Below are positions 1 to 44,963 of a stretch of DNA of 45,260 bases, in pieces. The stretch is from positions 1-45,260 of IMG/VR virus record IMGVR_UViG_3300033388_005395. One strand, written 5' to 3'. Every line of letters starts with the position of its first letter. Position 1 is the stretch's first letter. The stretch comes from a virus. Made by a program: the position numbers and the translations under genes. The notes under the pieces are model-generated. The model saw only the letters and a program-made list of their open reading frames with translations, ran no database searches and was not told where the DNA came from.

Positions 1-18
1 CCATTTTTTTTTTTTTTT
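1..18. other. Poly-T run at the window edge
   Basis: Fifteen T residues (4-18) lie directly against the stop codon of the giant minus-strand gene. On the minus strand this is an A-run that leads into an ATG at 4-2 with no ribosome site near it. It could be a genuine homopolymer between genes or an assembly-end artefact; the window alone cannot decide. Confidence 0.3.
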
Positions 19-3000
19 AAGGAAGCCCGTTGATTGCATTTGTGATTTTTTTCGTTAATCCAACAGCATCAATTTCGTTCCATTGGTCTATAGACATATA
101 GGTATTGTCAATCACACGCCTGAAAGCACCTTTAGATATTTCAATATCCAACTTGTGTGAAAGCTCGCTTACCAATATTGTATCGGTATTAATATCTATG
201 CCACTAATTGAGCCCAGTTTAACCTGGTCATTTTTTTTGCCAGCAAAAATCTTTCTAATTTGTTTAATTAATACAGCGCCAAATTCTTTTCGTTCTGTAA
301 AGGTTTTTTTGCCGCTCTTTGCATCAATCTTAGGGCCAATATATTCAGGAAGAGACTCTTCAATAGATTCAAAATCTTCAATCTCACCCTGATTTTCAGA
401 TATATCCCTCTCAAGTTTTCGCTTATCAGACGACAAGGTTGCCTGATTCGTCCGATGAGCGCCTTCAAGAAGATGTAATCTTTCAATATCAGAACGTAAA
501 CCAACAAGCTGGATTATCCTTTCGTCACCAGACGCCAAAGCAGCAGCCATTTCATACTGGCTGGATTCAGAAACATCCTCGATAGACCTTACGTTTTTAT
601 CACCGACAAAAGCCTGGTCTATAAACTTTGATTTCCTGGCAACCATCTGCCATAAAGTTGCGTCATAACTCCCCTTCGTGGCATATCGCTTTAAAACAAC
701 CTCTGTGTTTTGATTTCCTTGCCTAACAATTCGGCCATCCGGTTGCTCGACATCTGCCGGATACCATGGCGCATCTAAATAATGTAAATGCGTTAATCTG
801 TTTTGGACATTAACACCGGTACCCATTTTCTTTGCAGAACCAAGTAGAATCCTTTTTTTTCCGTCCCGCACAAGCTTGAACAAGGTCTGTTTTTGTGGAG
901 CAGTTTTATAATCATCAATCCATCCAATATGTTTTGTAGGAATATTAGCGGTTTTAAGACGTTTCATCAAAAATGCCTTAGAATCAAAACCCCTGCGTTC
1001 TATTACACCGCTCCCAAACCCATTGTTATAAAAACATATTTGAACACCGCCTTTTATTGGCGATTTTTTGGTTAAGCCATATTCTGTTGAATAGGTTAAA
1101 TCTTTTGTTGCTTTGTATGTTTCTATAATTCCATCAATCCATTTATTTAATTTGCTTTCCGGATCATTAATCGCTTTCCGATCAACGAAACGCATATCAA
1201 TAGAAGCTAATTTACCATCAGTTATGATATTAATGATTGGATCTGGGTTCCCTGGTTGCCCTAGAGATGGTTTCCATGCTCGGCTGGTCTCTATCCTTGG
1301 TTGCAACACTTCGTCCTGGTACTTTTTAAGAGCTTCGTTCTTTGGTGCAAGGACTATCTCAGCCGCACCGTCTTTGATTTTTGGGCGTTCAACTCTCGTC
1401 CCCAATTGAGAATCCGTTAAAACATCCATAAACATTCTAATGCGTGACATCAATTCAGGGATATTGACAAATCTCGAAAACCTTTCTACTGGCTCATAGC
1501 TGCCTGATGCTGTCATTTCATAGCTGGTTGCCGGTTCTCCGAACATATTTGCCCAGGCATCAAAATGGTTTATGCCATCCTCTTCCATTGCTCCTTGATC
1601 GAAAAATCTTTGCAAAGAATATAATTCGCCAAGAGTGTTAACGATAGGAGTGCCGGAAGCAAAAGCATGTGATCTGCCACGGTGTTGTTTTTCCATCCAA
1701 AGTGTCTTTATGTAAAGATCAATCGCTCTTCTTGAACCTTGGGGGTCAATTCCTTTCATCTGCCTATTTGTAGAAAAATCCAACTTTCTGAACTCATGCG
1801 CTTCATCCACGAACATAAAATCAGTGCCAAGCTCCTCAAAAGAAACAACATTATCACCATCTGAACGTAAAGAATTAAAGCGTTGTTCTGCCTGTTCAAT
1901 TCTTTTTTCCATCCGCTTGATCTTCATTTTTGGTTCGCCTTCATCTTTCATCTCTGATAGGGAGAACCGCATTTGTTCCAGAAATTCATCACGAACAGGC
2001 GCCAAAGTTTCCTCTTTGACACCCAGCATACCAAAGCTTGGATGAGTTAAAATAACAGCATCAGGGTCATTCAAAGTTGCTTGAGCTACAAATCGTTTTC
2101 TATTTTCTGTGTAGAAGTTTTTTTCATCTGCTACCAGAATGTTCGCCATAGGATAAAGCTCTTGAAACTCTTGAGCAAACTGACCAAGCATGTGCTTAGG
2201 TACAACATAAAGAGGCTTATTGATCATCCCCAACCGTCGCATTTCCATGCCGGCAGAGATCATAATAAAGGTTTTACCGGCACCCACGGCATGGGCCATA
2301 TAAGTATTGCCTGTTTGCAATATTCGCCAAATAACACGTTTCTGGTGATCGTATGGGGTAAAGTATTGGCTCATCCCCGGAAGCGTTAAATGTGAACCAT
2401 CAAACTCCCTGCCTTTGATAGTGTTTATTTTTGTATTGTAAATATTCAGCAATATGCCCGCTCTGTCAGCATCTTCCCACGCCCATGAGTTGAATCGCTG
2501 TCTTATCTTTTTAGCAACTTCATTGGCAGCGGCAGTAGCCTCTGCATCAAAGATAGTTTTTCTACTTCCGCCTTCCTCAATGGTATATGTAATCCTGATA
2601 GTCCTATTATTTAAAACAGAGTCCAATATTTCATTAGCTCCACGCTCCTTCGTGCCCCATTCACTGGTGGCCCCTCTTAGCTCTTGAGGTGAATAGCCTT
2701 GCTTGTTTCCATATCGCTGCCAGCTTGGTCTTGTATCTGCCCTGGGTAATACTCTCCATGAATTATCAATCGGCTGGTATGTAACTTCCGTGTTTGGCAG
2801 TTCAAGAACGTCTGTGGCGAACTGGCTGTAATAATCGAGAGGAATCCATGTAGCTCCGGGAGTTATTGTGATCTGCTTAGGCTCTAATGGCTCAGGCTGT
2901 GCTTTCTCTAAAGCCAAGACATTTCGCTTAAATGCGGGATCTGTTTTTGCAGCAATTCTCGCTTCCTCAAGTTTTTTTACAACATTTCCAGATAGATATT

Positions 3001-6000
3001 CGTCCGCCATCAAATAACCGGAACCATCAGGCGTGTCATAAATTAAATCTCCAAGAGCTGCTATAACCTCTTCGCTGGATTTATTAACTGTCTTTGCGAC
3101 ATGATTAATATCAAGCTTGCCTATTGCATCTAATGAAACAGCTAATGCATCAGGAATAGACTTGATTTTCGGCACAGTCGGCTTGTTTATTGTCCTGTCT
3201 TGTAAAACCCTTGATTTAATAACTTCGCCGTCTTGCGTAATCTTTTCCAAAGCCATGACCAATGACGATTCACAATCTATGCGAAGAATTGCTTCATTTT
3301 TATACTTACGATATTCAACTTTCTCGGTTGTGCCATCTTCATTATGCTTGGTCCGCATTGTGCTGGTAAATGCGAGGATATGACCATGCTTTTTTACAAA
3401 TTTGTTATATTCTCTATTGAGAACTTTTAAGGTTTTCTCCCAATCACCATTTTCAAGCTGAGACTTATGGGAAAGCTTTAAGGCGTCTCTTAACTTGATA
3501 TAGCTCTTTAGGAATCCCGTTGTTTTTGTTGTGATGTTCTTATGGATTGAACCGACAGGAACCCCGGAACCAAAGTCAACCTTCATAACAACGCCTTTAT
3601 CAGAAAGATAGATCCCGCCTTCCTTCTTGTTTTTCGGGTCGAAATCCCTCTCGATAACAGCCTTCTCGTTGTATTTTTCTTTAATCTTGGTTGAAACTTT
3701 TTGATATACGTTAGCCGGTAGCTTTTTTACGGCTTGTGCAAAAAGGTCTTCTATTTTGCCCTCGATGGGTTTTACTGTGTATTGCTTCGCTCCATACATA
3801 GAGCCTTCAAGAGAATGTTCGCCAAGTACCATTCCTGGATGATTAACAAAATACTCGTTGATCAGGGATGTATTATCACCAATTGCAATCTCATCTTGCC
3901 CTGCCCATGCTTCGCCTTTTTGCTTTGCCCCTTCTTCTCGCTTTTGAAGGAATAAAACATCTGTGACAACCTCAGTCCCTGCACTTTCAAGGAATGCTGT
4001 TTGAGGCAGCCTTATCGCTCCTAATAAGTCTGCTCTGCCAGCCATGTATTGCCTGGCCTTGTCAGCTTTTGAATCCATTGTATATCGACTGGTTACAAAA
4101 ACCAAAAGACCGCCCGGCTTTACTCGATCAATTGTTTTGGCAAAAAAGAAATTATGTAAGGAAAATCTGTGCTTCCTGTATTCCGGATCTCCAAGGATTT
4201 TAGTTGAACCAAAGGGAGGATTGCCTATGGCAGCATCAAAGAAATTTTTAGGGAATGCTTGATTGACGAAATCTGCTTGCAGAATGTTTTGAGTCGGATA
4301 TAATAGCTTTGCTATGTTGGCCGAAATCGGGTCCATCTCAATTCCGGTATAGTTTGACGTTTTCCGCATTTTGGCTGGGAGCAAACCAATAAAATTTCCT
4401 ATGCCCATGCCAGGCTCAAGAATTTTTCCACCTTTAAACCCCATCCTGCCAAGAGCATTGTAAATAGATTTGATTATTGGTTCGTTTGTGTAGTGAGCAT
4501 ACTGTGTGCTTTTTGCTGCGGGTTTTATTTCTTCAGGGGTTAGAAGTTTGATAAGTCGTTTTACAGGTGCTTCCCATCCGCTTTCTGACCAACCTGTCTT
4601 GACTTCACCAAATTGTGTATATCCAGGGAACATCTTGTTCGCTAATTCGGATGCACCCCACCCTACATATTTTGCGAGGATTGCTTGTTCTTTTGGTGTA
4701 GCAGGTCTTTTTTCGTTATTTATTTTCTTAAGTAATTCAATAGCATCAAGGTTATTATTCGCTGCATCTTTCCAACTTCCTTCACGCTTTAGTGAACCTG
4801 GTTTTATTGTATAGTCGGATCTTTGAAGTCCAGAAATGTTTCCAGTGTCTCGTCCCAGATTCTCTTTAGCGACATCTCCATTTCTTGCACCTGCGCTATC
4901 GGGTCTTTTTTGTCTGTCTCTACCTCGCTGTGTTTTGTCACCGCTTTTGCCCACTCTTCCTTGTACACCGCCATCATCTGTTCCTCTGTCTCTTTCAGGA
5001 ACTTCGGCAGAGCGAGATTCTTTTTCAACTCCTGATACGTCTTTGGCGCTTTCTCCTGCAATGCGTCCTGTATCATCTGCTTTCGCTGTTTCTTGTGGTT
5101 TTTCCCTTCCAGTGTTATTGGTAACATCTTTGCCCTCCTTGCCTATTTCCTCTTTGACAAACCTCTCAATATACGGCTTGCCTTTTGGAGATAGATTTGA
5201 CAGCGCAATCTGGATAAACTCTTTGCCCGATTTTCCAGAAGCAACAACTTCATCCCATGCATATTTTAACAGAGGTTCGATCTCTTTGTAAAGACTTTTA
5301 TCAATTTCTTTGGTAGAAAACGAGCCTCTTTCGCCAAGAATTTTGTTGATATCCTTAAAAGCTCCAAGGGCATTATTAAGATGATCAGCGGTTTCCCTGG
5401 CTTTTTGTTTTGCGGTTGGTCCCTGGTTGCTCTCCTCGATTTCCTCAACCTGGCGATCCAACTCGGCAAGCAGTTCGTCTGCGGTCATTTCGGAAGCGAG
5501 CTTGTCTGCCGTAGCTTTTTCAGGCGCAAGCTTTTTTTCAAGCAAAGCATCGAACTCCGCTTTTTCTTGGGTTGTTAAATAATCGACACGGCCTCTGTTG
5601 TATAACTCCCTGGGAGTATCAGGCTTGAATTTCTCCCCTTGTGGGCCTATTGGCCTTGGCGCATGGCTCTTAAACTTTCCATCAGCAGACATAAGATATC
5701 TGCCGTTTTCGTCTTCATAAATCTTGTCTCCGTTGGTATTTAAACCTATCTCATCAACCTCCTTTCCTGTGTCCTCTGACGGCTTTGCTTCGGGAGGCTT
5801 AGGGGTTGTAGCCTTTACAGCCTCTGGATTATAAATAAACTCGTTTTCAACTCCTTGCGCCTGATGATCGGGATGTAATCTTATTTCAGAGGCCGGGACT
5901 TCCTTGGAAAGCATTATTGTTTCATTTGTTATCCCACGTTTTATAAGATCATTCGCATAGAAATTGGCAACCTCTCTATCTGCCGCTACAAAATCCCCAG

Positions 6001-8356
6001 GTTCAATTTTCCCTTTTGTGCCTGCCGGAATAGCACGATAAACTGTTATGGTTTTATCGGCTTCCATGTTTTTAATATCAGCATAAGATTTTGTATCTTT
6101 TGTTTTAGCAATTCGGATGCTATTTATTTTGGGGGATCTGTCTTTCCCTGGCTGCTCACTTTCAATTTCTGCTTTTGTCGGAATTTCAACCTTTTCACCC
6201 GCAACCGCTTTCTCATATTCAGCCAGATTGGTCATTTCATGTTTGGCAGGATCGTAAACTACTGTGCTTTTTGTGTCTAATTCGTTGACTAATGGGATAG
6301 GTGTTTTGTTTGGCCTTTCTTGCATATCGATAAATTCAACGGATTTCTTTTCAACACCCACCGGCTCAAGAGCTACATCTGTCTTGGGCTCGGTAGGTGC
6401 TGGCTTGACCGCCTTTTCTTTAGCGCCCTCCGGCAAATAATCTGCAATCGTCTCGTCAAATATCTGTTTAAAGGTTCTATTGTAATTATTCTCTATATAC
6501 GGCCTTTCCTGTGATATCTGCATGGAAAAATCTTCTGTAAAATCATCAAGAGCGTCTTCAGGAACACCGGCTTTTTTTGCCTTGTCTCTGGCTTCGTCAA
6601 CAAATGCCATGGAAGCTTCAACCATATCGTTTTCATAGCGTGTCTGTAGATCTTCGTGTTGTGCTTTTAAGGCGACAATTTCTTTCTTAATCTCTTTTTT
6701 ACGGGCAACATCCTCTTTTTTGCGGCTGGATTTCAGGGCTTTAAGCTCGTTGTTAAGATCGTCAATCGCACCAGTATTTTCAGCTTTGACGGCCTCAACA
6801 TGATTCATCATCTGGCCCCACATTTCATTCTCATCCGCAGGAGTTATATCCCAACCTTTTTTGGACTTATGCTTGGGCTTTGTTGTTTCTGTAACAGGCT
6901 TTTTAATCTCTTTAGCTTCCTGCGCTGGAAGGCCCCTGTTTTCAAGCTCCTGTTGAAGCATCCCCAGATTTTGAGTTTGTTTCGCTGACAGACCTCTTGC
7001 GGCTTGTGTGCTTTCAAGGTTGTTTATGCGCTTTGAAATATCATTATCGGTAAGATCGTTCAGCCATTTTGGAGCAGGAGCAGCTTCTTTTTCAAGCATC
7101 TCATCTTCATAGGCGGCTGCGGCTTCTTCGGCATCCAGGGAGGACTCGGCTCCGGCAAAAGTATCAGCAGCAGCAGGTTCTTCTTTCTCTCCGGTCAAGA
7201 GTTCTTTGGCAGTTACATCTTGTTCGTCTTCGCTTAGAAGGGTGTCACGGGCTGCGGATTTCTTGGGAGATAAACCGTCAACCGGTTCGGATATGTCTAT
7301 GGGTAAGCTATTGTCAATCTGGCCATGAGCGTAATGCAACCAAAGGTTAGCTATCGGTTTATCTTTATTATCTTCCTGCGCGCTGATGACCCCAGCTACA
7401 GCGTTAACCGCATCGCGCCTTTTGCTTTCTTCTACGCTTGGATCGGTTAAACCTTTTAAAAGCCTATTAGCCTGAACATTCTGATATGTACCGCCAGCGG
7501 TACCGCTGACTATAGTCATAATGGCGGTAGGAGCAATAACGCTCATAGCCTCTTTTATCGGCTGAGCATCAGGTCTGATATTGTATGCTTTTTCAACAGT
7601 AGCCTCGCCATATTGTTGGCCGATTTCAGTAAGAACCTCTGTAGGCAACGTCTTTAAAAGAAGTTGTTTCCCGAACCTTCCTATTGTTGACTTAAGAAGT
7701 TGTTTTGCACCTGCTTTTGCAAGTGGGATGGTAGGCGCTAACGGGCCAAGCAGTCTGAGAAGCGCCATGTTTCCAATAGTTTCACCAGTGGTTTCAATGC
7801 CGCCTGTAATATAGGGCGCTGCTCCCGGGTCTATTCCCTGTTGTTCAGCCGTTTCTTTTGTTTGTTGCGCTTGAGACAGGCCAAACATTGCAGGCGTTAA
7901 AACATACGATGCTATCTTTAATGCTCCGCCCACAGGACGCGCCCCTGGAACCGGCAAAAACATTATTCCTGTTCCTAAAGCATTCAATGCCATTGGAATA
8001 GCAGCAGAAACAGTGGTCATTTCGCCAGCCTGATAAAAAGCCCCTCTTTCTTTCCTCTCTTCGCCCTCACGTCCCCAGTCAGCCAGTTTTTTACCAGACT
8101 CTATTCCTAAAAATTGACCTGCTTGGCCAACCATTTCAGGAAGTCTATGCTTTATGCCGGAGACAAAGCCTTTGCCATAATCAACGGCCGGAGACATGAA
8201 GGAGCGTTCTTCCGGCTCCCTCCCTTGAGCATAACTCTTCGCATCAACCAACTCACCCTCCCCAAAATCATCAAGAGAAAGCTGTTTGCCACCAGAAGGA
8301 TAAACATCTTGCAGCTCGTTTTCTTCAAAATCGTCTATGGTTAGTTGTCTTGGCAT
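17..8356 (-). CDS. Giant polyvalent phage protein: hydrophobic N-terminus, ART-like segment, N6-adenine methylase, SNF2-type helicase
   Basis: A 2779-residue protein, the last late gene in the window. Two copies of an L-x-x-DDF-x-x-x-E-L motif open it (about residues 5-14 and 26-35), followed by hydrophobic stretches near 113-165, 190-215 and 270-290 and an acidic, coiled-coil-rich region to about 620. Residues about 765-850 (ITVYRAIPAG... to FIYNP) resemble phage ADP-ribosyltransferase-like domains. A charged linker leads to a methylase: YVGWGA near 1235, AdoMet site LEPGMG at 1313-1318, catalytic NPPF at 1379-1382. A superfamily II helicase follows: GAGKT at 2025-2029, DEAH at 2184-2187, motif VI GRIVRQ near 2541. 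This order matches the 'polyvalent proteins' of phages and conjugative elements, including P1 DarB, which is packaged, injected and protects incoming DNA from restriction. The membrane-like N-terminus and late position fit packaging or ejection. Anti-restriction is inferred by family; the domains are seen directly. Confidence 0.9.
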   Translation of the reverse strand: MPRQLTIDDFEENELQDVYPSGGKQLSLDDFGEGELVDAKSYAQGREPEERSFMSPAVDYGKGFVSGIKHRLPEMVGQAGQFLGIESGKKLADWGREGEERKERGAFYQAGEMTTVSAAIPMALNALGTGIMFLPVPGARPVGGALKIASYVLTPAMFGLSQAQQTKETAEQQGIDPGAAPYITGGIETTGETIGNMALLRLLGPLAPTIPLAKAGAKQLLKSTIGRFGKQLLLKTLPTEVLTEIGQQYGEATVEKAYNIRPDAQPIKEAMSVIAPTAIMTIVSGTAGGTYQNVQANRLLKGLTDPSVEESKRRDAVNAVAGVISAQEDNKDKPIANLWLHYAHGQIDNSLPIDISEPVDGLSPKKSAARDTLLSEDEQDVTAKELLTGEKEEPAAADTFAGAESSLDAEEAAAAYEDEMLEKEAAPAPKWLNDLTDNDISKRINNLESTQAARGLSAKQTQNLGMLQQELENRGLPAQEAKEIKKPVTETTKPKHKSKKGWDITPADENEMWGQMMNHVEAVKAENTGAIDDLNNELKALKSSRKKEDVARKKEIKKEIVALKAQHEDLQTRYENDMVEASMAFVDEARDKAKKAGVPEDALDDFTEDFSMQISQERPYIENNYNRTFKQIFDETIADYLPEGAKEKAVKPAPTEPKTDVALEPVGVEKKSVEFIDMQERPNKTPIPLVNELDTKSTVVYDPAKHEMTNLAEYEKAVAGEKVEIPTKAEIESEQPGKDRSPKINSIRIAKTKDTKSYADIKNMEADKTITVYRAIPAGTKGKIEPGDFVAADREVANFYANDLIKRGITNETIMLSKEVPASEIRLHPDHQAQGVENEFIYNPEAVKATTPKPPEAKPSEDTGKEVDEIGLNTNGDKIYEDENGRYLMSADGKFKSHAPRPIGPQGEKFKPDTPRELYNRGRVDYLTTQEKAEFDALLEKKLAPEKATADKLASEMTADELLAELDRQVEEIEESNQGPTAKQKARETADHLNNALGAFKDINKILGERGSFSTKEIDKSLYKEIEPLLKYAWDEVVASGKSGKEFIQIALSNLSPKGKPYIERFVKEEIGKEGKDVTNNTGREKPQETAKADDTGRIAGESAKDVSGVEKESRSAEVPERDRGTDDGGVQGRVGKSGDKTQRGRDRQKRPDSAGARNGDVAKENLGRDTGNISGLQRSDYTIKPGSLKREGSWKDAANNNLDAIELLKKINNEKRPATPKEQAILAKYVGWGASELANKMFPGYTQFGEVKTGWSESGWEAPVKRLIKLLTPEEIKPAAKSTQYAHYTNEPIIKSIYNALGRMGFKGGKILEPGMGIGNFIGLLPAKMRKTSNYTGIEMDPISANIAKLLYPTQNILQADFVNQAFPKNFFDAAIGNPPFGSTKILGDPEYRKHRFSLHNFFFAKTIDRVKPGGLLVFVTSRYTMDSKADKARQYMAGRADLLGAIRLPQTAFLESAGTEVVTDVLFLQKREEGAKQKGEAWAGQDEIAIGDNTSLINEYFVNHPGMVLGEHSLEGSMYGAKQYTVKPIEGKIEDLFAQAVKKLPANVYQKVSTKIKEKYNEKAVIERDFDPKNKKEGGIYLSDKGVVMKVDFGSGVPVGSIHKNITTKTTGFLKSYIKLRDALKLSHKSQLENGDWEKTLKVLNREYNKFVKKHGHILAFTSTMRTKHNEDGTTEKVEYRKYKNEAILRIDCESSLVMALEKITQDGEVIKSRVLQDRTINKPTVPKIKSIPDALAVSLDAIGKLDINHVAKTVNKSSEEVIAALGDLIYDTPDGSGYLMADEYLSGNVVKKLEEARIAAKTDPAFKRNVLALEKAQPEPLEPKQITITPGATWIPLDYYSQFATDVLELPNTEVTYQPIDNSWRVLPRADTRPSWQRYGNKQGYSPQELRGATSEWGTKERGANEILDSVLNNRTIRITYTIEEGGSRKTIFDAEATAAANEVAKKIRQRFNSWAWEDADRAGILLNIYNTKINTIKGREFDGSHLTLPGMSQYFTPYDHQKRVIWRILQTGNTYMAHAVGAGKTFIMISAGMEMRRLGMINKPLYVVPKHMLGQFAQEFQELYPMANILVADEKNFYTENRKRFVAQATLNDPDAVILTHPSFGMLGVKEETLAPVRDEFLEQMRFSLSEMKDEGEPKMKIKRMEKRIEQAEQRFNSLRSDGDNVVSFEELGTDFMFVDEAHEFRKLDFSTNRQMKGIDPQGSRRAIDLYIKTLWMEKQHRGRSHAFASGTPIVNTLGELYSLQRFFDQGAMEEDGINHFDAWANMFGEPATSYEMTASGSYEPVERFSRFVNIPELMSRIRMFMDVLTDSQLGTRVERPKIKDGAAEIVLAPKNEALKKYQDEVLQPRIETSRAWKPSLGQPGNPDPIINIITDGKLASIDMRFVDRKAINDPESKLNKWIDGIIETYKATKDLTYSTEYGLTKKSPIKGGVQICFYNNGFGSGVIERRGFDSKAFLMKRLKTANIPTKHIGWIDDYKTAPQKQTLFKLVRDGKKRILLGSAKKMGTGVNVQNRLTHLHYLDAPWYPADVEQPDGRIVRQGNQNTEVVLKRYATKGSYDATLWQMVARKSKFIDQAFVGDKNVRSIEDVSESSQYEMAAALASGDERIIQLVGLRSDIERLHLLEGAHRTNQATLSSDKRKLERDISENQGEIEDFESIEESLPEYIGPKIDAKSGKKTFTERKEFGAVLIKQIRKIFAGKKNDQVKLGSISGIDINTDTILVSELSHKLDIEISKGAFRRVIDNTYMSIDQWNEIDAVGLTKKITNAINGLP

Positions 8357-28556: not shown

Positions 28557-30995
28557 TTAATACCCTGTCACATTGTCCACGGTGTCGGTCTGGGATTGCC
28601 TGTCGGAATCCCAAATCTGATAATTTTCCGGCGGTGCTGTGGTTGATATACTCAGTCCGCTCATACAAAGATACCTAACGTCATCCATTAAGTGATCATT
28701 TTCTTTAACGATCTTACCTTTTTCGTCTCTCCGGTAAATTCGATATTCCGCTAAAAAATTGCGCAGTGAATTAAAAACCTTGAGCTTGCCTGTCGAAAAC
28801 CTTTGCCATACATTTAACAATCCGGATTCAACCGAATTGTCTGCGTAGCTAAGGTGCAGTCCTAATGCAATGTATTCATCGACTAATCGTGTTCCGTCCT
28901 TCTGACTCCGCCCCCGTGCAGCCGGATCAATAACACCTGGAATCCACTCCCCTCTGGCCTTAATCCCTTCGGCATGAATTATTGGTTCTGCTTCTCCTCT
29001 GTAATGTTCTGAAAACAGATAAACCACATCTGATTGCTGATCCCATGCTCCCCACAGGGCCGCTGTCCGGTTCCATCCAACATCTAAGGCATAGCATTTT
29101 GGCCACGACGGAGGTATTTCAAACGGTTCAATGGTAATATCGTCTTCTGCGATTGGATAGATGGCACCAGCGCCTAACTGCGGGATACCTTTGGAGCGTG
29201 CGTCTCGTTGATATGGGGGTATTGAAGTAAGTAATTCTGTTTTTTGCTGCTCGGTCAGGTGAGGGGCGTCATCCCATGTGGCATTAACAACATATTTGCC
29301 GGTTTTAGAAAAATCTTCAGGAATTTTTCCGCCCGGCATAAACGATAAAACTGTTTCGGAGAGCCCTAACAACGGCGTAAACGTACACATTACCAGCCCA
29401 TTAGTAGTCATTGTGCGGAGCAAGCATTCGGCATAAATACCCAGATCACACTCTTCATCTAACCAAATTACATCCTGCTCTGTTCCCTGAAACGATTTTC
29501 TTTTCTGGTCGTACGAATTACCTACTCTAAATCCACCGGAAATATATTCATGGCAACCTTCTACACCTATCCCAAATACATTGTGTTTTCCGATTTTGGT
29601 TATTTGGAATATCTCTCCTATCTTATATTTAGGACGAGGTTTTATGTTGCACGTGCAGTCTCTGTTAAATTTACCTATTTCTGTAAACAGCACTCGATTT
29701 TCACCATGCAAGTTTATCGTATGGCTATTAAAATGTTTCCCGTTGAGTTTGACCTTACGGCTTCGTATATTTGCATAAATATTTACACTACGTAATAATA
29801 ATACCACATCCTCCGCCAGCCTATATGAAGCAGACGTATATGAAGCCCTTTTGTTGTTAATTGTGCCATCACACGACCACAACCAAAAAAGAAATGTCTT
29901 TTTTTGCTTTGCCGATAATCCAAATACCCAGTCAGGAATATATTTATGTTTAGACAGTTTGTTCCACAATCCATCCCTTCTAAGGCTTTTTGTCAATTTG
30001 TTGTGATTGGGGGTATTGCTTGAAATTTTATATGTAATAGTATTGCGCATTCGTTCAATGGTTAAATCATCTGGCAGACATTTTCTTAATTCATCAACTT
30101 GCTCAGGGTCGTTACATGTAAAGAACGGAGTTTTACCCCTGGTGCATCCATCCCCAATCATAACGGCAGTCATAATTATCAGCCAGTCTTCCTTGTTGTT
30201 GTCTACTATGCCAGTTTTCTCTATGCCTAATGAAGGCGTAAGGGATAGAATATCTCCAATTTGTAAATCACCCGCATCCACAACTCGTCCATCTCCTCTA
30301 AACACTTTGTGGTTAGGCGTAACTCGCAACCTGCCACCTTCCGCTTGTATCTCAATCACATCAGCATCAGCATAGGAATGTGTTTGCGTTACTATACCAA
30401 TCTTCCCATCGGCTAAAACAACCCCATCTCCTATTTTAATCTCTTCAATGTTTGCCCATGCTCCAGCCTTAGTTAAAATTCGTTCTCCTGCTGGGTGACA
30501 CTTTAAGCCGAGATGTGATGTTCCGCCGGACACATGCTTGACGGCTATTGACTCGACTGTATCTGGTACGCTGCCTGCTTTATTTTTTGTGTTGACTATT
30601 AAGTCGCCTGGAATAAGACCAATACCGTATTCTCCAGGAGGTCCGAGCAGTTTCGTCTGAATAATATCTCGGACGGTCTGCGATGTGTCACCTGCCGCCC
30701 ATGCCTTGATAGGTTTTGTGAATCTTTTCCCTGCCCACCAGCCAGGATAATCACCGGTCAGATGGAGTGTAAGCTCATATCCACCGACGCCCTCGGTCTT
30801 GCCTACCCTGTTGGCGCTTATTATTGCTCGCTCTCGATATTTAGCGCCAGCCTCGAAAAATTGACAATGTGGAATATACAGCTCCCGTCTGAGCGGCCCT
30901 GCCTCTGGATACATGCGGTGTATTCTTGTCCGCCTGTATCTGCGCTCTCTTTCATTGAGCAGGTTAAGGAGTTCTATTTTTTGCTGTCTATTCAC
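28557..30995 (-). CDS. terL: Large terminase subunit (ATPase/nuclease) with an intein
   Basis: An 812-codon frame starting at GTG 30995, overlapping the small-terminase end by 8 nt. The N-terminal extein carries the Walker A-like ANRVGKT at residues 61-67. An intein occupies residues 166-493; after it the sequence continues SYDQKRKSFQG and VIWLDEE (Walker B with catalytic Glu, about 509-515). The C-terminal nuclease region shows CYALDVGWNRTAALWG, GVIDPAARGRSQKDG and HLMDDVRYLC, which supply the acidic metal ligands. Without the intein the protein would have 484 residues, a normal TerL length. It translocates phage DNA into the prohead with the small terminase and portal. Confidence 0.93.
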   Translation of the reverse strand: MNRQQKIELLNLLNERERRYRRTRIHRMYPEAGPLRRELYIPHCQFFEAGAKYRERAIISANRVGKTEGVGGYELTLHLTGDYPGWWAGKRFTKPIKAWAAGDTSQTVRDIIQTKLLGPPGEYGIGLIPGDLIVNTKNKAGSVPDTVESIAVKHVSGGTSHLGLKCHPAGERILTKAGAWANIEEIKIGDGVVLADGKIGIVTQTHSYADADVIEIQAEGGRLRVTPNHKVFRGDGRVVDAGDLQIGDILSLTPSLGIEKTGIVDNNKEDWLIIMTAVMIGDGCTRGKTPFFTCNDPEQVDELRKCLPDDLTIERMRNTITYKISSNTPNHNKLTKSLRRDGLWNKLSKHKYIPDWVFGLSAKQKKTFLFWLWSCDGTINNKRASYTSASYRLAEDVVLLLRSVNIYANIRSRKVKLNGKHFNSHTINLHGENRVLFTEIGKFNRDCTCNIKPRPKYKIGEIFQITKIGKHNVFGIGVEGCHEYISGGFRVGNSYDQKRKSFQGTEQDVIWLDEECDLGIYAECLLRTMTTNGLVMCTFTPLLGLSETVLSFMPGGKIPEDFSKTGKYVVNATWDDAPHLTEQQKTELLTSIPPYQRDARSKGIPQLGAGAIYPIAEDDITIEPFEIPPSWPKCYALDVGWNRTAALWGAWDQQSDVVYLFSEHYRGEAEPIIHAEGIKARGEWIPGVIDPAARGRSQKDGTRLVDEYIALGLHLSYADNSVESGLLNVWQRFSTGKLKVFNSLRNFLAEYRIYRRDEKGKIVKENDHLMDDVRYLCMSGLSISTTAPPENYQIWDSDRQSQTDTVDNVTGY
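29517..30500 (-). mobile_element. LAGLIDADG-type intein in the large terminase
   Basis: A 328-residue in-frame insertion: Cys at residue 166 (CHPAGERILTKAG) starts block A, TPNHKVFRGDG is block B with the TxxH motif, MTAVMIGDGCTRG and FLFWLWSCDGTINN are two LAGLIDADG-type motifs, and VFGIGVEGCHEYISGG is the C-terminal block. Cleavage is predicted before Ser of SYDQKRK. The insertion lies between Walker A and Walker B, so splicing should be required for ATPase activity. The penultimate residue is Gly rather than the usual His (VGN then S). Confidence 0.9.
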
Positions 30996-37504: not shown

Positions 37505-37900
37505 ATGAGAAAATATATAATAGTTATTTCTTTGGTTTTTCTCGCCACCTATGCTTTCTGTGAAGAAAAAATTCATCCCCTTATTAAAAACGATATCCGA
37601 TTTAAGATCGACACTCTTTGCTTGAAACACAACCTCGAATCGCTTCAGTGCAAAGCAGCCCTCCTGAAATTTTATTGTCATCAAAACAGTAATCCTGTTA
37701 TGGACGGTGAAGTGCCATGGTATCCTATGACCATTAAGATTATTAAAAACATAGCTCAAAAACATGGTTGTTCCGTAAACTCTTTGGCGGCTGTAGTCGC
37801 TGATTACGAGGCATGGGTAAGCACAGAGGAGAGCGTCAATAGAAATAATGCTTACGAGGACCATGGCGGTGGGGCTGAATTTGACTATGATCAGTTTTAA
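37505..37900 (+). CDS. Secreted Cys-containing protein
   Basis: The ATG at 37505 (GAGGGT upstream) gives 131 residues: MRKYIIVISLVFLATYAFC, a Sec signal peptide, then a mature part with Cys residues (DTLCLKHNLESLQCK, FYCHQ, KHGCS) that could form disulfides in the periplasm. An Asp/Glu-rich end follows (EDHGGGAEFDYDQF). It lies between the repressor and an exported nuclease and overlaps that gene by 14 nt, so both may be expressed in the lysogen. No family recognised. Confidence 0.7.
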   Translation: MRKYIIVISLVFLATYAFCEEKIHPLIKNDIRFKIDTLCLKHNLESLQCKAALLKFYCHQNSNPVMDGEVPWYPMTIKIIKNIAQKHGCSVNSLAAVVADYEAWVSTEESVNRNNAYEDHGGGAEFDYDQF

Positions 37901-38354
37901 TAAAAAAACTATCATTTTTTTAATCTTAATTTTTCTACCAGCAACGGTCTTTGCATGGTCGGGCCAATGCGTCGGTGTTGCCGACGGCGACACAATCAAG
38001 GTTATCCACTATGGCAAGCCCGAAAAAATAAGGTTATATGGCATTGACTGCCCTGAAAAGAAACAGGCATACGGGAAAAAGGCAAAGCAATTTACGGCCA
38101 AACTGGTTTTTAAGCAGATCGTTAATGTTAAGCCTGTTACAACCGACCGATATGGCCGGACAATCGCCTGGCTATATGTAGGCGATAAAAGCCTTAACAA
38201 AGAGTTGTTAAAAGCTGGTCTCGCCTGGCACTATAAACGATATTCTCAAGATGAAGATTTGGCTGTATTAGAGGCGGAAGCAAGAAAAAACAAGATCGGC
38301 CTATGGAACGATAAACACCCCATGCCGCCGTGGGATTTTAGGCGAAAACCATAA
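37887..38354 (+). CDS. Exported thermonuclease (SNase family)
   Basis: From the ATG at 37887: 155 residues with a clear signal peptide (FNKKTIIFLILIFLPATVFA, then WSGQ). The SNase fold follows: VGVADGDTIKVIHYG (metal ligand Asp), KIRLYGIDCPEKKQAYGKKA (Arg and Glu of the active site), VTTDRYGRTIAWLYVGDKSL (second Arg), LLKAGLAWHYKRY, LEAEARKNKIGLW. An upstream ATG at 37863 is closer to GAGGA but would lengthen the signal. The enzyme cleaves DNA/RNA outside the cytoplasm. In a prophage it could degrade incoming DNA in the periplasm or serve nutrient uptake; inference only. Confidence 0.88.
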   Translation: MISFNKKTIIFLILIFLPATVFAWSGQCVGVADGDTIKVIHYGKPEKIRLYGIDCPEKKQAYGKKAKQFTAKLVFKQIVNVKPVTTDRYGRTIAWLYVGDKSLNKELLKAGLAWHYKRYSQDEDLAVLEAEARKNKIGLWNDKHPMPPWDFRRKP

Positions 38355-39792: not shown

Positions 39793-40013
39793 TGCAAGGA
39801 CCGGTTTGCGATAGAATCTTTGAATGTGACGGCTGGAAGAAAAGCTACAGGCAGATCAACGATGCAATAATATTAAAGCTTCGCCTGTCTTCTGATAAGC
39901 CGTGCGGGGCCATAGTTCCTTTTAGGTTTTGTCCCTGGTGCGGCCAAGAAATTAAATGGGAGGAGTGGGAAAGAAAGATAACAGGACAAAACGGAGGAGG
40001 TAAAGGACAATGA
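39792..40013 (+). CDS. Small zinc-ribbon protein
   Basis: A 73-residue protein. Motifs CDRIFEC near the start and VPFRFCPWCGQEI near residue 43-55 form a two-pair Cys arrangement; the 'PFxFCPWCG' ending is a widespread phage signature. The ATG overlaps the upstream stop (TAATG), and its own stop overlaps the start of the next gene by 4 nt. Function unknown. Confidence 0.7.
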   Translation: MQGPVCDRIFECDGWKKSYRQINDAIILKLRLSSDKPCGAIVPFRFCPWCGQEIKWEEWERKITGQNGGGKGQ

Positions 40014-41068
40014 CTAAAGATGTGCAAAAATCAGTTGAAAAGGAGTTGGCTGAATACAAAGAGCAAAACGCCAACATCCTCGGCCCATCAACGAGAATGG
40101 ACGGGCTGTCGGAGTTTCACAAGGTTATTGTGGATTCCGTTTCACTGTCAATCAACCCGGTTGATGGGGATATATACAAACATAAAGACGGATACGGGGA
40201 TGCCCCTGCTCAATACATTATAGCAGGACAGGGGCTACAACGGCTGGCGGTATGCGCTGGTGTTGTCTGGAATCCAATTGAAACCAAAGCAACATCTATA
40301 TCGCAAAAATATGTTGCCTATAACGCCGTGGGCTGTATCCGAAAAGCCGATGGCACTCCTGTGTGCTTCCAGGCAGAATATGATGTTGACATAGACGTTG
40401 TAGAGGATGAGCTCAGAGACCAGTTTAAGGACAAGAAAAAGAAATGGGAAGAAAAGCCCTGGTTCCAGAAACTGTCGCCAGAGTCTCGGGAGGATTATAT
40501 CGAGAGCGCCATCCGCAAAGAGCTGAACTTTAAAAAGAAACACAAAACCAAGATCGCCGCTACTGGCGCAAAAAACAGGGTGGTCAGGGCTCTGCTGGGT
40601 GTCAAAAAAACATATACGATAGCAGAGCTGAAAAAGCCTTTCGTTATGCCACGGGTAATACTCCAGCCTGATTATAGCGATCCGGAAGTCAAAAAACTTA
40701 TGCTGGCAGCATCCATACAATCGCAAACAGGCGTATTTGGCCCTGCTCCAAGCCAATCTCCGGTGATCGATGTGCCTGTTGGTGATTATGACGTCCAACC
40801 TGTACCGGAAGATACCGGCGGCGGTGATGATCGCGAGCCACAGGAGGGGGCTGAACCTGTGCCTGATGATGCCCTGCTGACAAGAGAAGAATATAATGGT
40901 CTGCCAGAAGATGAGCAACTCTTGACGTTAGAGGAAATGGCAACTGAAAAAGGCTATACTGTGCCCGTGCCAATCAAAGAGATGGACGGTCACAACCGGG
41001 GAAGGTTGTTTGATCACCTGAACTCCATGCCGGCGCCAACTCCAATTGATGATGACATCCCGTTTTAA
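40010..41068 (+). CDS. Phage recombination-operon protein with SSB-type C-terminal tip
   Basis: A 352-residue protein. The N-terminal 210 residues form a conserved globular part: LGPSTRMDGLSEFHKVIVDS, VSLSINPVDGDIYKHKDGYG, QYIIAGQGLQRLAVCAGVVW, YVAYNAVGCIRKADGTPVCF, then AATGAKNRVVRALLGVKKTY, a stretch typical of a nucleic-acid-binding or annealing protein. The C-terminal half is Pro/Gly/acidic-rich and flexible and ends DDDIPF, exactly the partner-binding tip of bacterial SSB. It lies next to SbcD-like and SbcC-like genes. A single-strand binding or annealing role is inferred; I know of similar phage proteins annotated only as hypothetical. Confidence 0.7.
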   Translation: MTKDVQKSVEKELAEYKEQNANILGPSTRMDGLSEFHKVIVDSVSLSINPVDGDIYKHKDGYGDAPAQYIIAGQGLQRLAVCAGVVWNPIETKATSISQKYVAYNAVGCIRKADGTPVCFQAEYDVDIDVVEDELRDQFKDKKKKWEEKPWFQKLSPESREDYIESAIRKELNFKKKHKTKIAATGAKNRVVRALLGVKKTYTIAELKKPFVMPRVILQPDYSDPEVKKLMLAASIQSQTGVFGPAPSQSPVIDVPVGDYDVQPVPEDTGGGDDREPQEGAEPVPDDALLTREEYNGLPEDEQLLTLEEMATEKGYTVPVPIKEMDGHNRGRLFDHLNSMPAPTPIDDDIPF

Positions 41069-41088: not shown

Positions 41089-42321
41089 TTGAAGATACTT
41101 CACTTGGCTGACATTCACGCCAGAGACAAGGACATCGCAGAGATTGAACGCTGCCTGCACCATATCGTAGCAACGGCCTATAAGGAAAAGCCAGACCTGA
41201 TCATCAACGCGGGCGATACATTCGATAGCGCAGGGATTAAAGCAGACAGCAAGTCAGCTAAGCTGATATTCAGGATATTCAAAGACCTTGCCGATATTGC
41301 TCCGGTTGCAGTGCTGATAGGTACGCCATCGCACGATGGCCAGACCGCCGAAACACTCAAATATATCAAGGCCAGGTATCCGGTATGGGTATCCACAAGG
41401 CCGGAACAGCTCTATCTTGCAGAAGGTGATCTTAACGCTGACCCGTCCGAACTCAGAGCGCCTGCACAGGCTCCGGTTGAGGCCGCAATCTCAATGATTC
41501 CCGCGCCTACCAAGCAATTCTTCAATGCAAACAGCGATATCAAGGGTTCTGATGCAGAGATTGCGGTTGAAATGAGCAAGATGTTTGCAGGATTTGCAGC
41601 GCAGGCAGAGGCATATAAATGCCCCCACATACTTTGCGGCCATTGGAATACAACAGGCTCACTGATATCAGAGACGCAGACATTGACAGGGGTAGATATC
41701 GAAATATCAACCGAACAAATGGCCCTGGCAAACGCAAATCTTGTGTGTCTTGGGCATATTCATAAAAGCCAGCAGCTCAAAGGCAATGTTTTCTATTCCG
41801 GCTCTATCTATCGTAATAATTGGGGCGAAATGGATGACAAAGGTTTTTACATTCACGAGATAGGCCAGATCCCGCCCGACAACAACTATCATCTCACTGA
41901 ATCAAGGGTAATCATCACCCCAACACGCAAACTCATCAAGCTCGACGCTGATCTGACAGAAGATTGCGCTTTTGAAGAACTGGATAGCACGCTGTATTCC
42001 GAGAGCGCAGACGATCTCAAAGACTCTCACCTACGCATTGAACTCAAGGTGTATCAGGACGAAGCTCAAAAGGTCGATACCGAAAGGATTAAAAACTTCT
42101 TTATTTCCGGCGGCGCAAAAGAGGTTGATGTCAAGTTGGTAAGAGTTCCCAGGGAGAACGTCAGGAGCAAAAACATCCTGAAGCTGACAACTCTGCGTGA
42201 GAAACTTGTTGAGCAGGCCAGCCTGAAAAAAGAAACGGTACCGGAATCGATACTTGCAAAGGCCGATCTACTGGAAGCTGAAACATCAGAAAAAATCATT
42301 ACAAGTGTTGCTGCAAGATAA
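41089..42321 (+). CDS. SbcD/Mre11-like nuclease
   Basis: A 410-residue metallophosphoesterase starting at TTG 41089 (AAGGAGG about 6 nt upstream). MKILHLADIHARD gives the D-x-H motif (D8, H10), LIINAGDTFDS the GD motif (D43), GTPSHDGQ stands where GNHD is usual (H82, D83), then ILCGHWN (GH) and CLGHIHKSQ (GHxH). The C-terminal half matches the capping region that binds the ATPase partner. With the SbcC-like protein it should form a DNA-end-processing complex. The GNHD to GTPSHD change removes the canonical Asn ligand. Confidence 0.88.
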   Translation: MKILHLADIHARDKDIAEIERCLHHIVATAYKEKPDLIINAGDTFDSAGIKADSKSAKLIFRIFKDLADIAPVAVLIGTPSHDGQTAETLKYIKARYPVWVSTRPEQLYLAEGDLNADPSELRAPAQAPVEAAISMIPAPTKQFFNANSDIKGSDAEIAVEMSKMFAGFAAQAEAYKCPHILCGHWNTTGSLISETQTLTGVDIEISTEQMALANANLVCLGHIHKSQQLKGNVFYSGSIYRNNWGEMDDKGFYIHEIGQIPPDNNYHLTESRVIITPTRKLIKLDADLTEDCAFEELDSTLYSESADDLKDSHLRIELKVYQDEAQKVDTERIKNFFISGGAKEVDVKLVRVPRENVRSKNILKLTTLREKLVEQASLKKETVPESILAKADLLEAETSEKIITSVAAR

Positions 42322-42347: not shown

Positions 42348-42635
42348 ATGGCAGACAACAGAAAGCTATACAAAGAAGCAGTCAAAACCTTCGGCCATGC
42401 CAGCCAGATTGACATGATGATCGAGGAGTGCGCAGAGCTGATTTTTGCAATACAAAAACATAAAAGGGTATTGCCGTGCGACGTTCCAGGGGAAATCGCC
42501 GATGTTGAAATAATGTGTGCTCAAATGCGCATCATTTTTCCAGGCGTGGCTGATGCGAAGAAGCGTAAACTGGAAAGGCTTTATTTTTTGATAGAGGAAA
42601 GAAAGGACGTGGTGAAAAACAGGGGGGAGGGATAA
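42348..42635 (+). CDS. MazG-like NTP pyrophosphohydrolase
   Basis: A 95-residue all-helical protein: GHASQIDMMIEECAELIFAI, then VPGEIADVEIMCAQMR, which provides the EExxE and ExxD metal-binding motifs of the MazG/dUTPase-like alpha superfamily. It hydrolyses nucleoside triphosphates, perhaps (p)ppGpp-related or modified nucleotides, and is common in phages. Its stop directly precedes the GTG of the SbcC-like gene, so it is embedded within the SbcDC pair. Confidence 0.78.
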   Translation: MADNRKLYKEAVKTFGHASQIDMMIEECAELIFAIQKHKRVLPCDVPGEIADVEIMCAQMRIIFPGVADAKKRKLERLYFLIEERKDVVKNRGEG

Positions 42636-44963
42636 GTGAAAATAAACAAACTTAGACTCAAAGGCTTTATCGGTATCAAAAAAGGGCTTGGCCTCGACGA
42701 AATTGAGCTGGACTTTTCCGATCTTTCCGGATTAATCGCTTTTGCCGGGCCTAACGGCCACGGTAAAACAACCGTTTTGGACTGTATGCAACCTTACAGA
42801 CAAATGGCAAGCCGGAATCGATCATTACAACATCACGTTTTTCTTCGAGACAGCGAAAAAGAACTGGAGTTCGAGTTTCAGGGAGACAGATACCGGACGC
42901 TATTAAAGATCGATGCCGAATCAGAACGCTCCGAGGGATTTATATGGAAAAATGGCGAAAGCCTGGTTGATGGCAAGGTAACCAATTATGACAAAACTAT
43001 AACCAAGCTGCTTGGCTCAGCTACTCTATTTTTCAACAGCGTCTTCTGCGCTCAAAACTCAAAGAAGCTTAACGACATGACCACAGGAGACCTCAAAAAG
43101 CTCTTTTCCGAGTTCCTGCGTCTCGACACCTTGGTCGAATATGAAAACACAGCAAAGCAATGCAATAACCTGCTTACCGGCCAGGCGGAAAAACTTGAAC
43201 GTGAGATTAATTCCCTGAAAGAGCTGGTTGATAGTTATGATCAGGCAACGGGTAGTTTGTCGGCTGCAAGAGGATCTAAAGAAGGGCACGAAGAAAAACT
43301 GGTCGAGTTAACAAACGACCTCAAACAGGCTGAAATCAAGCTGGCCGATATCCGAACCAGCATCCAGAAAAACGAGCTGATCAATGCTCGAATAACAGGC
43401 CTGCAAGACGGCCTTGCCGCCATCGAAAAGGATATTGACGATAACAAGGAACAATCACAAACCGAACTTACCGACCTACGCTCAAAATACCGGACCGTCG
43501 ATCTGGAAATTGTCGAATTACAAAGCCTTTTGGCCAACGAAACGGAGATCCGGAAAGCGGCAGATGTATGTGCTGAGATGACAGCATCCATCGCTGGAAA
43601 CAAGAAGCTGGCTGAAATTATATCAAAAGAACATTTTGCCGCCGCTCAATCTGTATCAAAAAAAGAAACAGAGAAATCAGACTATTCACTGGAGATAGGA
43701 AAGCTAATTAATGCAGGAGAAAATTACGAATCTCAACTATCACTCCAGATTGACCAAGCCAAACTCAAAACAATAGACCTGGATAAGCGGGATAGTTTAT
43801 TAGCTGCGGCAAACGAACCGGAATGTAAATCAAAAGCGTGCCCATTTATTTCAACGGCATTATCGGCCCAGGAAGATATCCCAAAATTAGAAGCTACGTT
43901 GGCAGATCAGCGCGCTGACACAAAAATAAAGAAAAAAGAACACGATATTACTCTAAACCGGATTAATGCAGAGATAGAGGCTCTCAGAAAGCAGGAATCA
44001 GGCAAAAAGAGTGAAAAAGACCAGCTTGAGGCAAAAATCACCGAATCCGAGGCCAAACTTGTAAAAGTTTCAGACTTGGCAAGCGAACTATCAAAGGTAG
44101 AAACAGCTCTGACACGCAAAAATGACCTCGAAAAGCAAAAAATGGAGCTAACAGACGAAGGAATTAAAATTAAGACAACGTGGGAAAAGCGAATTTCCGA
44201 AAAAGAAAAGCAGAAAAAAATAACAGAGAAAAACATCGAGCTTACCCAAGCTGAAATCAACAATATCGCAGAACACAACCTGCCCATTATTTCTAACAAT
44301 ATTGCGCTGATAAAAAGCTCTATCACAGACCGCGCGAATAAGATAACCGAGCTATCCGCGACAATACTCTCTCATGAAAAAGAGGTCGCTCAAAAAGAAC
44401 AGGCAAAAAAAGATTTTCTGGCAAAGGCGGCAGAGCGTAGCCGGATCGTCACAGAATCAAGCGAATGGACATATCTGAAAAGTGCTTGCGGCAAGGACGG
44501 ATTAAGAGCGTTGGAGATCGATTCTGTTGCGCCTGTCATCACTGGTTACGCAAACGAATTGCTTCTTTCAACCTTCGGCCCGTCATACACTGTGAAGTTT
44601 CGCACTCAGGACGAAGAAACCGGCAGGGAAATACTCGATATCGTCGTAATCCGTGATGACGGCTCGGAGGTGTTGCTGGATAATCTTTCAGGTGGGGAAA
44701 AGGTGTGGAGCCTGAAAGCCCTGAGATTGGCAATGACATTAATATCAAAAGAAAAGAGTGGAAAGAATTTTTTGTGTGCTTTGGCGGATGAAGAAGACGG
44801 GGCTTTGGATGTCGATAATGCACAAAACTTTATAAGGCTGTATCGCTCTTTTATGCCTGCGGGCGAATTCGAGGATCTTTTTTTCATCAGCCATAAGGCG
44901 GAATGCGTTGCGATGGCTGATCATGTGTTGGAGTTTGGCAATGGCGAAATTAAAATCAATTAA
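42636..44963 (+). CDS. SbcC/Rad50-like ATPase
   Basis: A 775-residue SMC-like protein starting at GTG 42636 (GGGAGG 5 nt upstream). Walker A GPNGHGKT at residues 38-45; two long coiled coils flank a hook at C397 and C402 (ECKSKACPF, spacing CxxxxC instead of the classical CxxC); ABC signature LSGGEK at 684-689; Walker B around LADEEDGALD (716-725), and SHKAECVAMADH near the end (H-loop). With the SbcD-like protein it opens and trims DNA ends for recombination or host DNA degradation. The coupled MazG-like gene precedes it. Confidence 0.88.
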   Translation: MKINKLRLKGFIGIKKGLGLDEIELDFSDLSGLIAFAGPNGHGKTTVLDCMQPYRQMASRNRSLQHHVFLRDSEKELEFEFQGDRYRTLLKIDAESERSEGFIWKNGESLVDGKVTNYDKTITKLLGSATLFFNSVFCAQNSKKLNDMTTGDLKKLFSEFLRLDTLVEYENTAKQCNNLLTGQAEKLEREINSLKELVDSYDQATGSLSAARGSKEGHEEKLVELTNDLKQAEIKLADIRTSIQKNELINARITGLQDGLAAIEKDIDDNKEQSQTELTDLRSKYRTVDLEIVELQSLLANETEIRKAADVCAEMTASIAGNKKLAEIISKEHFAAAQSVSKKETEKSDYSLEIGKLINAGENYESQLSLQIDQAKLKTIDLDKRDSLLAAANEPECKSKACPFISTALSAQEDIPKLEATLADQRADTKIKKKEHDITLNRINAEIEALRKQESGKKSEKDQLEAKITESEAKLVKVSDLASELSKVETALTRKNDLEKQKMELTDEGIKIKTTWEKRISEKEKQKKITEKNIELTQAEINNIAEHNLPIISNNIALIKSSITDRANKITELSATILSHEKEVAQKEQAKKDFLAKAAERSRIVTESSEWTYLKSACGKDGLRALEIDSVAPVITGYANELLLSTFGPSYTVKFRTQDEETGREILDIVVIRDDGSEVLLDNLSGGEKVWSLKALRLAMTLISKEKSGKNFLCALADEEDGALDVDNAQNFIRLYRSFMPAGEFEDLFFISHKAECVAMADHVLEFGNGEIKIN

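Follow-up and report, generated by a model that had tools for sequence, protein, structure and literature searches.

Genes and features at the locus

The 45,260-base virus record analyzed here, referred to as the window, carries terminase, portal, and replication genes, with the early and late genes laid out divergently. An open reading frame (ORF) at positions 40010 to 41068 of the plus strand encodes a protein of 352 amino acids that ends in PTPIDDDIPF; the Shine-Dalgarno-like sequence GGAGGAGG, located approximately 10 nt 5′ of its ATG, provides a good ribosome-binding site. The initial annotation had pointed out that the last six residues are those of Escherichia coli SSB, that an acidic linker precedes them, and that SbcD-like and SbcC-like genes lie alongside; each of these observations was confirmed. 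The DNA at 41048 to 41068 reads gat-gat-gac-atc-ccg-ttt-taa, encoding DDDIPF and a stop codon, and DDDIPF is the C-terminal end of E. coli SSB (PMC5928155). The acidic linker is present and is poorly conserved. The SbcD-like gene starts at 41089, 20 nt 3′ of the ORF, the SbcC-like gene starts at 42636, and with a MazG-like ORF between them these genes form a tight run on the same strand. The SbcD motifs (DIH, GDTFD, GTPSHD, GH, and GHIH) are in place, and SbcC has the Walker A sequence GPNGHGKT, the LSGGE signature, and a Cys pair at the apex of the coiled coil. The features are as follows.

40010..41068, plus strand: PHROG_13782 protein, 352 aa, predicted Rad52-superfamily single-strand annealing protein (PHROG 13782, E=1.5e-44)
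40010..40744, plus strand: predicted conserved annealing core, residues 1-245 (identity within the helical-tail clade; hhalign to the zinc-ribbon clade)
40565..40588, plus strand: GAKNRVVR, residues 186-193 (same alignment position as the RMLRHKAxIQxAR-type helix in a Red-beta-like relative)
40865..41029, plus strand: helical domain at the C terminus, residues ~286-340, restricted to the clade of the window protein (model pLDDT 77-87)
41048..41065, plus strand: SSB-type C-terminal tip DDDIPF (translation; tips of relatives)
41089..42321, plus strand: SbcD/Mre11-like nuclease subunit (PHROG 100, E=3.5e-25; TIGR00619, E=3.7e-18, which is below the TIGR00619 cut-off)
42348..42635, plus strand: MazG-like nucleotide pyrophosphohydrolase, 95 aa, between SbcD and SbcC (PHROG 2245, E=3.6e-21)
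42636..44963, plus strand: SbcC/Rad50-like ATPase (PHROG 77, E=4e-45)

Other features of the window were also recorded. The gene for the terminase large subunit (28557-30995, minus strand) is apparently interrupted by an intein between the two terminase halves, with a PF14890 splicing domain (E=2.4e-4, residues 202-488) and a LAGLIDADG domain (E=9e-10) in the insert. A 2779-aa ORF (17-8356, minus strand) with Eco57I-type methyltransferase and SNF2/ResIII helicase domains resembles the giant polyvalent anti-restriction proteins of phages, and a staphylococcal-nuclease-type protein (37848-38354, plus strand; PF00565, E=7e-29) has a hydrophobic N terminus and is possibly secreted.

The PHROG 13782 family

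Residues 3 to 300 of the protein match PHROG 13782 (E=1.5e-44), a family of unknown function that is also matched by more distant members of the group described below. Searches of Pfam, NCBIfam, and the PDB with the sequence of the window protein gave nothing above noise; an unrelated enzyme family, a match to which would have told against the initial reading, was looked for in these searches and was rejected because none was matched. The Pfam families PF03837, PF04404, PF04098, and PF06378 likewise had no match in the 15 family members scanned, at E-value limits of 1 or 5. The description of the protein as undescribed holds as far as it was checked, since PHROG 13782 has no assigned function and the single-strand annealing protein (SSAP) families that have been surveyed differ from it: the survey names seven such families, built from other Pfam families (PMC8093625).

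Two close relatives, 56 to 58% identical to the window protein, are encoded on an IMG/VR contig (L001) and on a contig of a "Candidatus Omnitrophota" metagenome-assembled genome (MAG; L004). In the first of these, the helicase ORF 5′ of the family gene (85-2592, plus strand) contains intein-type sequence (PF14890, E=3e-5) and has the end HNYFADGVLVSNC. A distant fecal phage record led to a much larger clade, with 70 loci and then 53 loci in a separate scan, and all 53 of the latter were confirmed by HMM. Among GenBank phages the sole match was an unannotated fecal record, and plasmids gave no match. Profile-profile comparison by hhalign joined the clade of the window protein (with intermediates) to the zinc-insert clade at 100% (E=1.9e-54). 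The PHROG 13782 family is widespread in phages.

In a tree of the core, the window protein fell inside a single helical-tail branch with a support of 0.91. Pairwise identity among six members of this clade was 0.31 to 0.55 for the core stretches and 0.25 to 0.28 for the linker and tail domain. Outside the helical-tail clade, a zinc ribbon forms the C terminus of nearly all members; the exceptions are L101 and L116, whose tails are of a third type, and L075, whose reading frame stops early. The gut clade (L010-L078) has a second CxxC...CxxC element, inserted within the annealing core, and the intermediates L085, L096, L099, L104, and L134 have the zinc-ribbon tail and lack this core insert.

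Probable relationship to single-strand annealing proteins

The AlphaFold2 model of the window protein itself, built from three sequences, was of low confidence (pLDDT 45), its most confident stretch being residues ~286-340 (pLDDT 77-87). Fold comparison, in which the feature sought was the Rad52 arrangement of a beta sheet and a beta hairpin packed on a helix, was carried out with a relative, L056, which is about 21% identical to the window protein and whose model (49 sequences; pLDDT 82, pTM 0.63) includes a zinc insert as well as a tail that is disordered. Human RAD52 accounted for each of the eight highest-ranking PDB matches of this model (E values of 0.009 to 0.033, probabilities of 0.82 to 0.96), the top match having an E value of 0.009 and a probability of 0.92; no PDB match had an E value below 0.001. 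TM-scores for the first RAD52 matches were 0.17 to 0.41, under the value of 0.5 used as a threshold elsewhere (PMC11783212), and the resemblance is therefore graded as fold-level evidence of moderate strength. Against viral predicted structures, the best functionally named matches were mostly annotated as Rad52 homologue, RecT, phage recombination protein, or Erf, and two viral matches reached E values below 0.001 with a probability of 1.00.

Profile comparisons were made with small Rad52, ERF, RecT, and SSB sets gathered in the phylum Omnitrophota. The trimmed family profile was colinear with RecT/Red-beta over 139 columns (E=0.0011, score 32.7), with an hhalign probability of just 20%, and 150 column shuffles of the trimmed profile scored no higher than 20.1. 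An earlier, untrimmed run with 60 shuffles had given one unexplained outlier, and none was seen after trimming. RecT/Red-beta was thus the set that the family profile picked among Rad52, ERF, RecT, and OB-fold SSB, the motif order agrees, and the best single-sequence match was a Red-beta-like protein (E=0.0009). Comparisons with the Rad52, ERF, and SSB sets were at the level of noise; these sets are tiny, and the known SSAP families likewise missed each other. The motifs follow one another through residues 1 to 245 in the order NP..YK, a GLQRLA helix, a beta hairpin, a KxKxxxxGAKNRxxRxLLG helix, and KPFV.

Based on the fold ranking of L056 and the weak colinear match to the RecT/Red-beta profile, the most likely identity of the core is that of a divergent SSAP of the Rad52 superfamily, paired with SbcCD. 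The fold and profile matches, together with the operon, thus favor the earlier proposal of an annealing-type protein working with SbcCD, as predicted from sequence and models. The accompanying proposal of a single-strand-binding protein in the SSB sense was not supported: no OB fold is present, and in the fold comparison the resemblance is to annealing proteins of the Rad52/RecT type. An OB-fold SSB identity was considered and rejected, with no PF00436 match in the window and an SSB profile comparison at noise level.

Pairing with SbcCD

An SbcD gene or an SbcD-SbcC fusion (approximately 1280 to 1300 aa) was found 3′ of the family gene in every locus with at least about 600 nt of downstream sequence, in all clades; L007, L011, L041, L079, L105, and L085 are too short downstream to be scored. 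SbcD and SbcC are separate in the close relatives of the window protein and fused in the gut clade and in zinc-ribbon members; fused Mre11-Rad50 proteins have already been described (PMC3175470). The arrangement expected of a two-component phage recombinase, in which the operon also encodes a DNA-end nuclease, is seen throughout the family. A survey of SSAPs mentions sbcC only beside sak4, in some streptococcal phages (PMC8093625), and in the literature searched we found no description of a pairing of SbcCD with a PHROG 13782 annealing-type protein.

The C-terminal tip

The window protein has exactly the arrangement of an SSB-type tail, an acidic linker with D-[ILV]-P-F as the final four residues of the protein. 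Tips were compared among six members of the helical-tail clade (L105, which is cut off, was left out), and these end in DDDIPF (window), LEIPF (L001), GDIPY (L004), QDVPY (L129), DGIPS (L131), and SLPFE (L122). The expectation that the DDDIPF end would be conserved in homologues was upheld in part: [ILV]P[FY] is terminal in four of the six members of this one clade, the departures being IPS (L131) and LPFE (L122), and conservation does not extend to the family as a whole, most members of which end in a zinc ribbon. In SLPFE, the extra E would block the terminal carboxylate. Pairwise identity among the six was 0.56 over the last three residues versus 0.21 over the nine before them. Just 5 of the 532 distinct ORFs of at least 250 aa across the fetched loci have [ILV]P[FYW] as their last three residues, and these comprise four family members and one SSB, which indicates that the tip is more than a chance occurrence.

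Most of the Omnitrophota SSBs sampled end in sequences of the EEIPF, EDIPF, DEVPF, or EEAPF type. A few lack such a tip, among them the SSB on the chromosome of the MAG from which L004 comes. Since four of six helical-tail clade members carry the tip and it was not found in the remaining family members, the tip is, by sequence, confined to this clade and matches the tips of bacterial SSBs, two members departing from it.

The idea that the tip stands in for an absent SSB was rejected as a general rule, since SSBs are encoded in the L131 record (ending in EDDIPF) and in the L105 record (ending in DDDIPF); the L129 record has a partial SSB. No PF00436 gene was found in the window, L001, or L122 records, which is weak evidence of absence, as these records may be incomplete. 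As a separate observation, a contig of the Omnitrophota MAG (L080) carries an SSB gene (1363-1812, minus strand) beside a Rad52 gene, and the SSB reads DSDSIPF followed by ITRWGYL, so that its SSB-type tip is not C-terminal.

Proposed function and alternatives

We consider it probable that the gene product is a divergent Rad52/RecT/Red-beta-type SSAP that acts together with the phage SbcCD as a two-component recombinase and whose tip docks SSB partners. In this scheme, SbcCD would generate single strands from phage DNA ends, either at breaks or at the termini of the molecule, and the annealing protein would oligomerize on the single strand via its basic core and pair it with a complementary strand, thereby using the products of SbcCD for annealing. 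In the clade of the window protein, the flexible acidic linker would present the SSB-type tip to the tip-binding pocket of SSB partners. Docked there, the tip would either recruit these partners to where annealing takes place or act as a competitor of SSB for their binding.

A bolder proposal, which we put forward tentatively, is that the annealing protein has acquired the tip of SSB for itself and displays this tail from its own filament, as opposed to Red-beta, which binds the tail of SSB. Host SSB-dependent enzymes could in this way be drawn to phage annealing intermediates, or SSB could be displaced from its own interaction network, and the proteins would represent a new and widespread family of SSAPs for which coupling to SbcCD is obligatory.

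Three alternatives were weighed. The same annealing core may carry an acidic tip that is an autoinhibitory DNA mimic, folding onto the protein's own ssDNA site with no recruitment of SSB partners. Acidic tails of SSB-type proteins can fold back on their own ssDNA site, the linker here is acidic and flexible with a hydrophobic end, and the departures IPS and LPFE suit a loosely constrained tail more than a strict pocket ligand. However, it is the hydrophobic IPF end that is conserved and not the acidic count, LEIPF and QDVPY having few acidic residues, and the likeness both to bacterial SSB tips and to the phage SSBs in two sister-clade records (GPDDDIPF and PEDDIPF) points to the same pocket; we regard autoinhibition as unlikely.

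It can also be envisioned that the variable C-terminal domain, whether helical with a tip or a zinc ribbon, docks the phage's own SbcCD, with the IPF end forming part of the interface. The pairing with SbcD/SbcC is universal, the C-terminal domain of Red-beta offers a precedent in binding both lambda exonuclease and SSB (PMC8303780), and the tail and the form of the partner vary together, SbcD and SbcC being separate in the close relatives and fused in zinc-ribbon members. This explanation nevertheless leaves the identity of the end with the bacterial SSB tip unaccounted for, and L101 and L116 have another tail yet retain SbcD, making it improbable in our estimation. Equally improbable is a role without annealing activity, in which a protein of Rad52-like fold would serve SbcCD as a mediator of recombination or as an end-protection factor: no SSAP Pfam family was matched, TM-scores to RAD52 are low, and the SbcCD pairing is equally compatible with a mediator or inhibitor, but annealing proteins are the best fold and profile matches, and the basic, nearly invariant KxKxxxxGAKNRxxRxLLG helix lies at the position of the Red-beta RMLRHKA helix.

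If the preferred reading, an SSAP that works with SbcCD and docks SSB partners, is correct, a function would be assigned to PHROG 13782, a divergent family linked to SbcCD would be added to the phage annealing proteins, and fresh recombineering candidates would become available for gut and environmental bacteria. Because the tip sits on the annealing protein itself and is removable, the tip-bearing clade would provide a clean test of the entry of annealing proteins into the SSB interaction network.

Comparison with known systems

Bacterial and phage SSBs (PF00436) share with the window protein the last six residues, DDDIPF, and the acidic flexible linker; unlike them, the window protein has no OB fold, PF00436 match, or profile similarity. 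The SbcCD/Mre11-Rad50 systems of other phages, such as T4 gp46/gp47, and their fused forms likewise supply SbcD and SbcC genes for the processing of phage DNA ends, but the literature searched does not describe a strict association of such systems with an annealing-type protein of PHROG 13782. RAD52 and the phage Rad52/Erf/Sak proteins (PF04098, PF04404, and PF06378) ranked first in fold among both PDB and viral models, and in L138, a phage Rad52, the motif ETDAMKRA resembles ETGAKNR of the PHROG 13782 family, whereas no profile similarity was detected with the small sets used and the inserts and tails differ.

The weak colinear profile match would give the family the motif order of RecT/Red-beta (PF03837), with an NP..Y strand, a GLxxLA helix, a hairpin, and a basic helix before an acidic residue, and the family likewise has a DNA-end nuclease as its operon partner, which for RecT/Red-beta is RecE or lambda exonuclease. 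It differs in that it has no Pfam-level match, its partner is SbcCD (Mre11-Rad50 type), and its tail is an SSB-type tip or a zinc ribbon. Dependence of phage recombination proteins on SSB tails has precedents: Sak4 of HK620 depends on the NDYPPF tail of that phage's SSB (PMC5928155), and the K253A substitution in Red-beta abolishes SSB binding and nearly abolishes recombination in vivo (PMC8303780). Red-beta binds SSB via its C-terminal domain (PMC8303780), whereas the window protein would itself bear the SSB-type tail.
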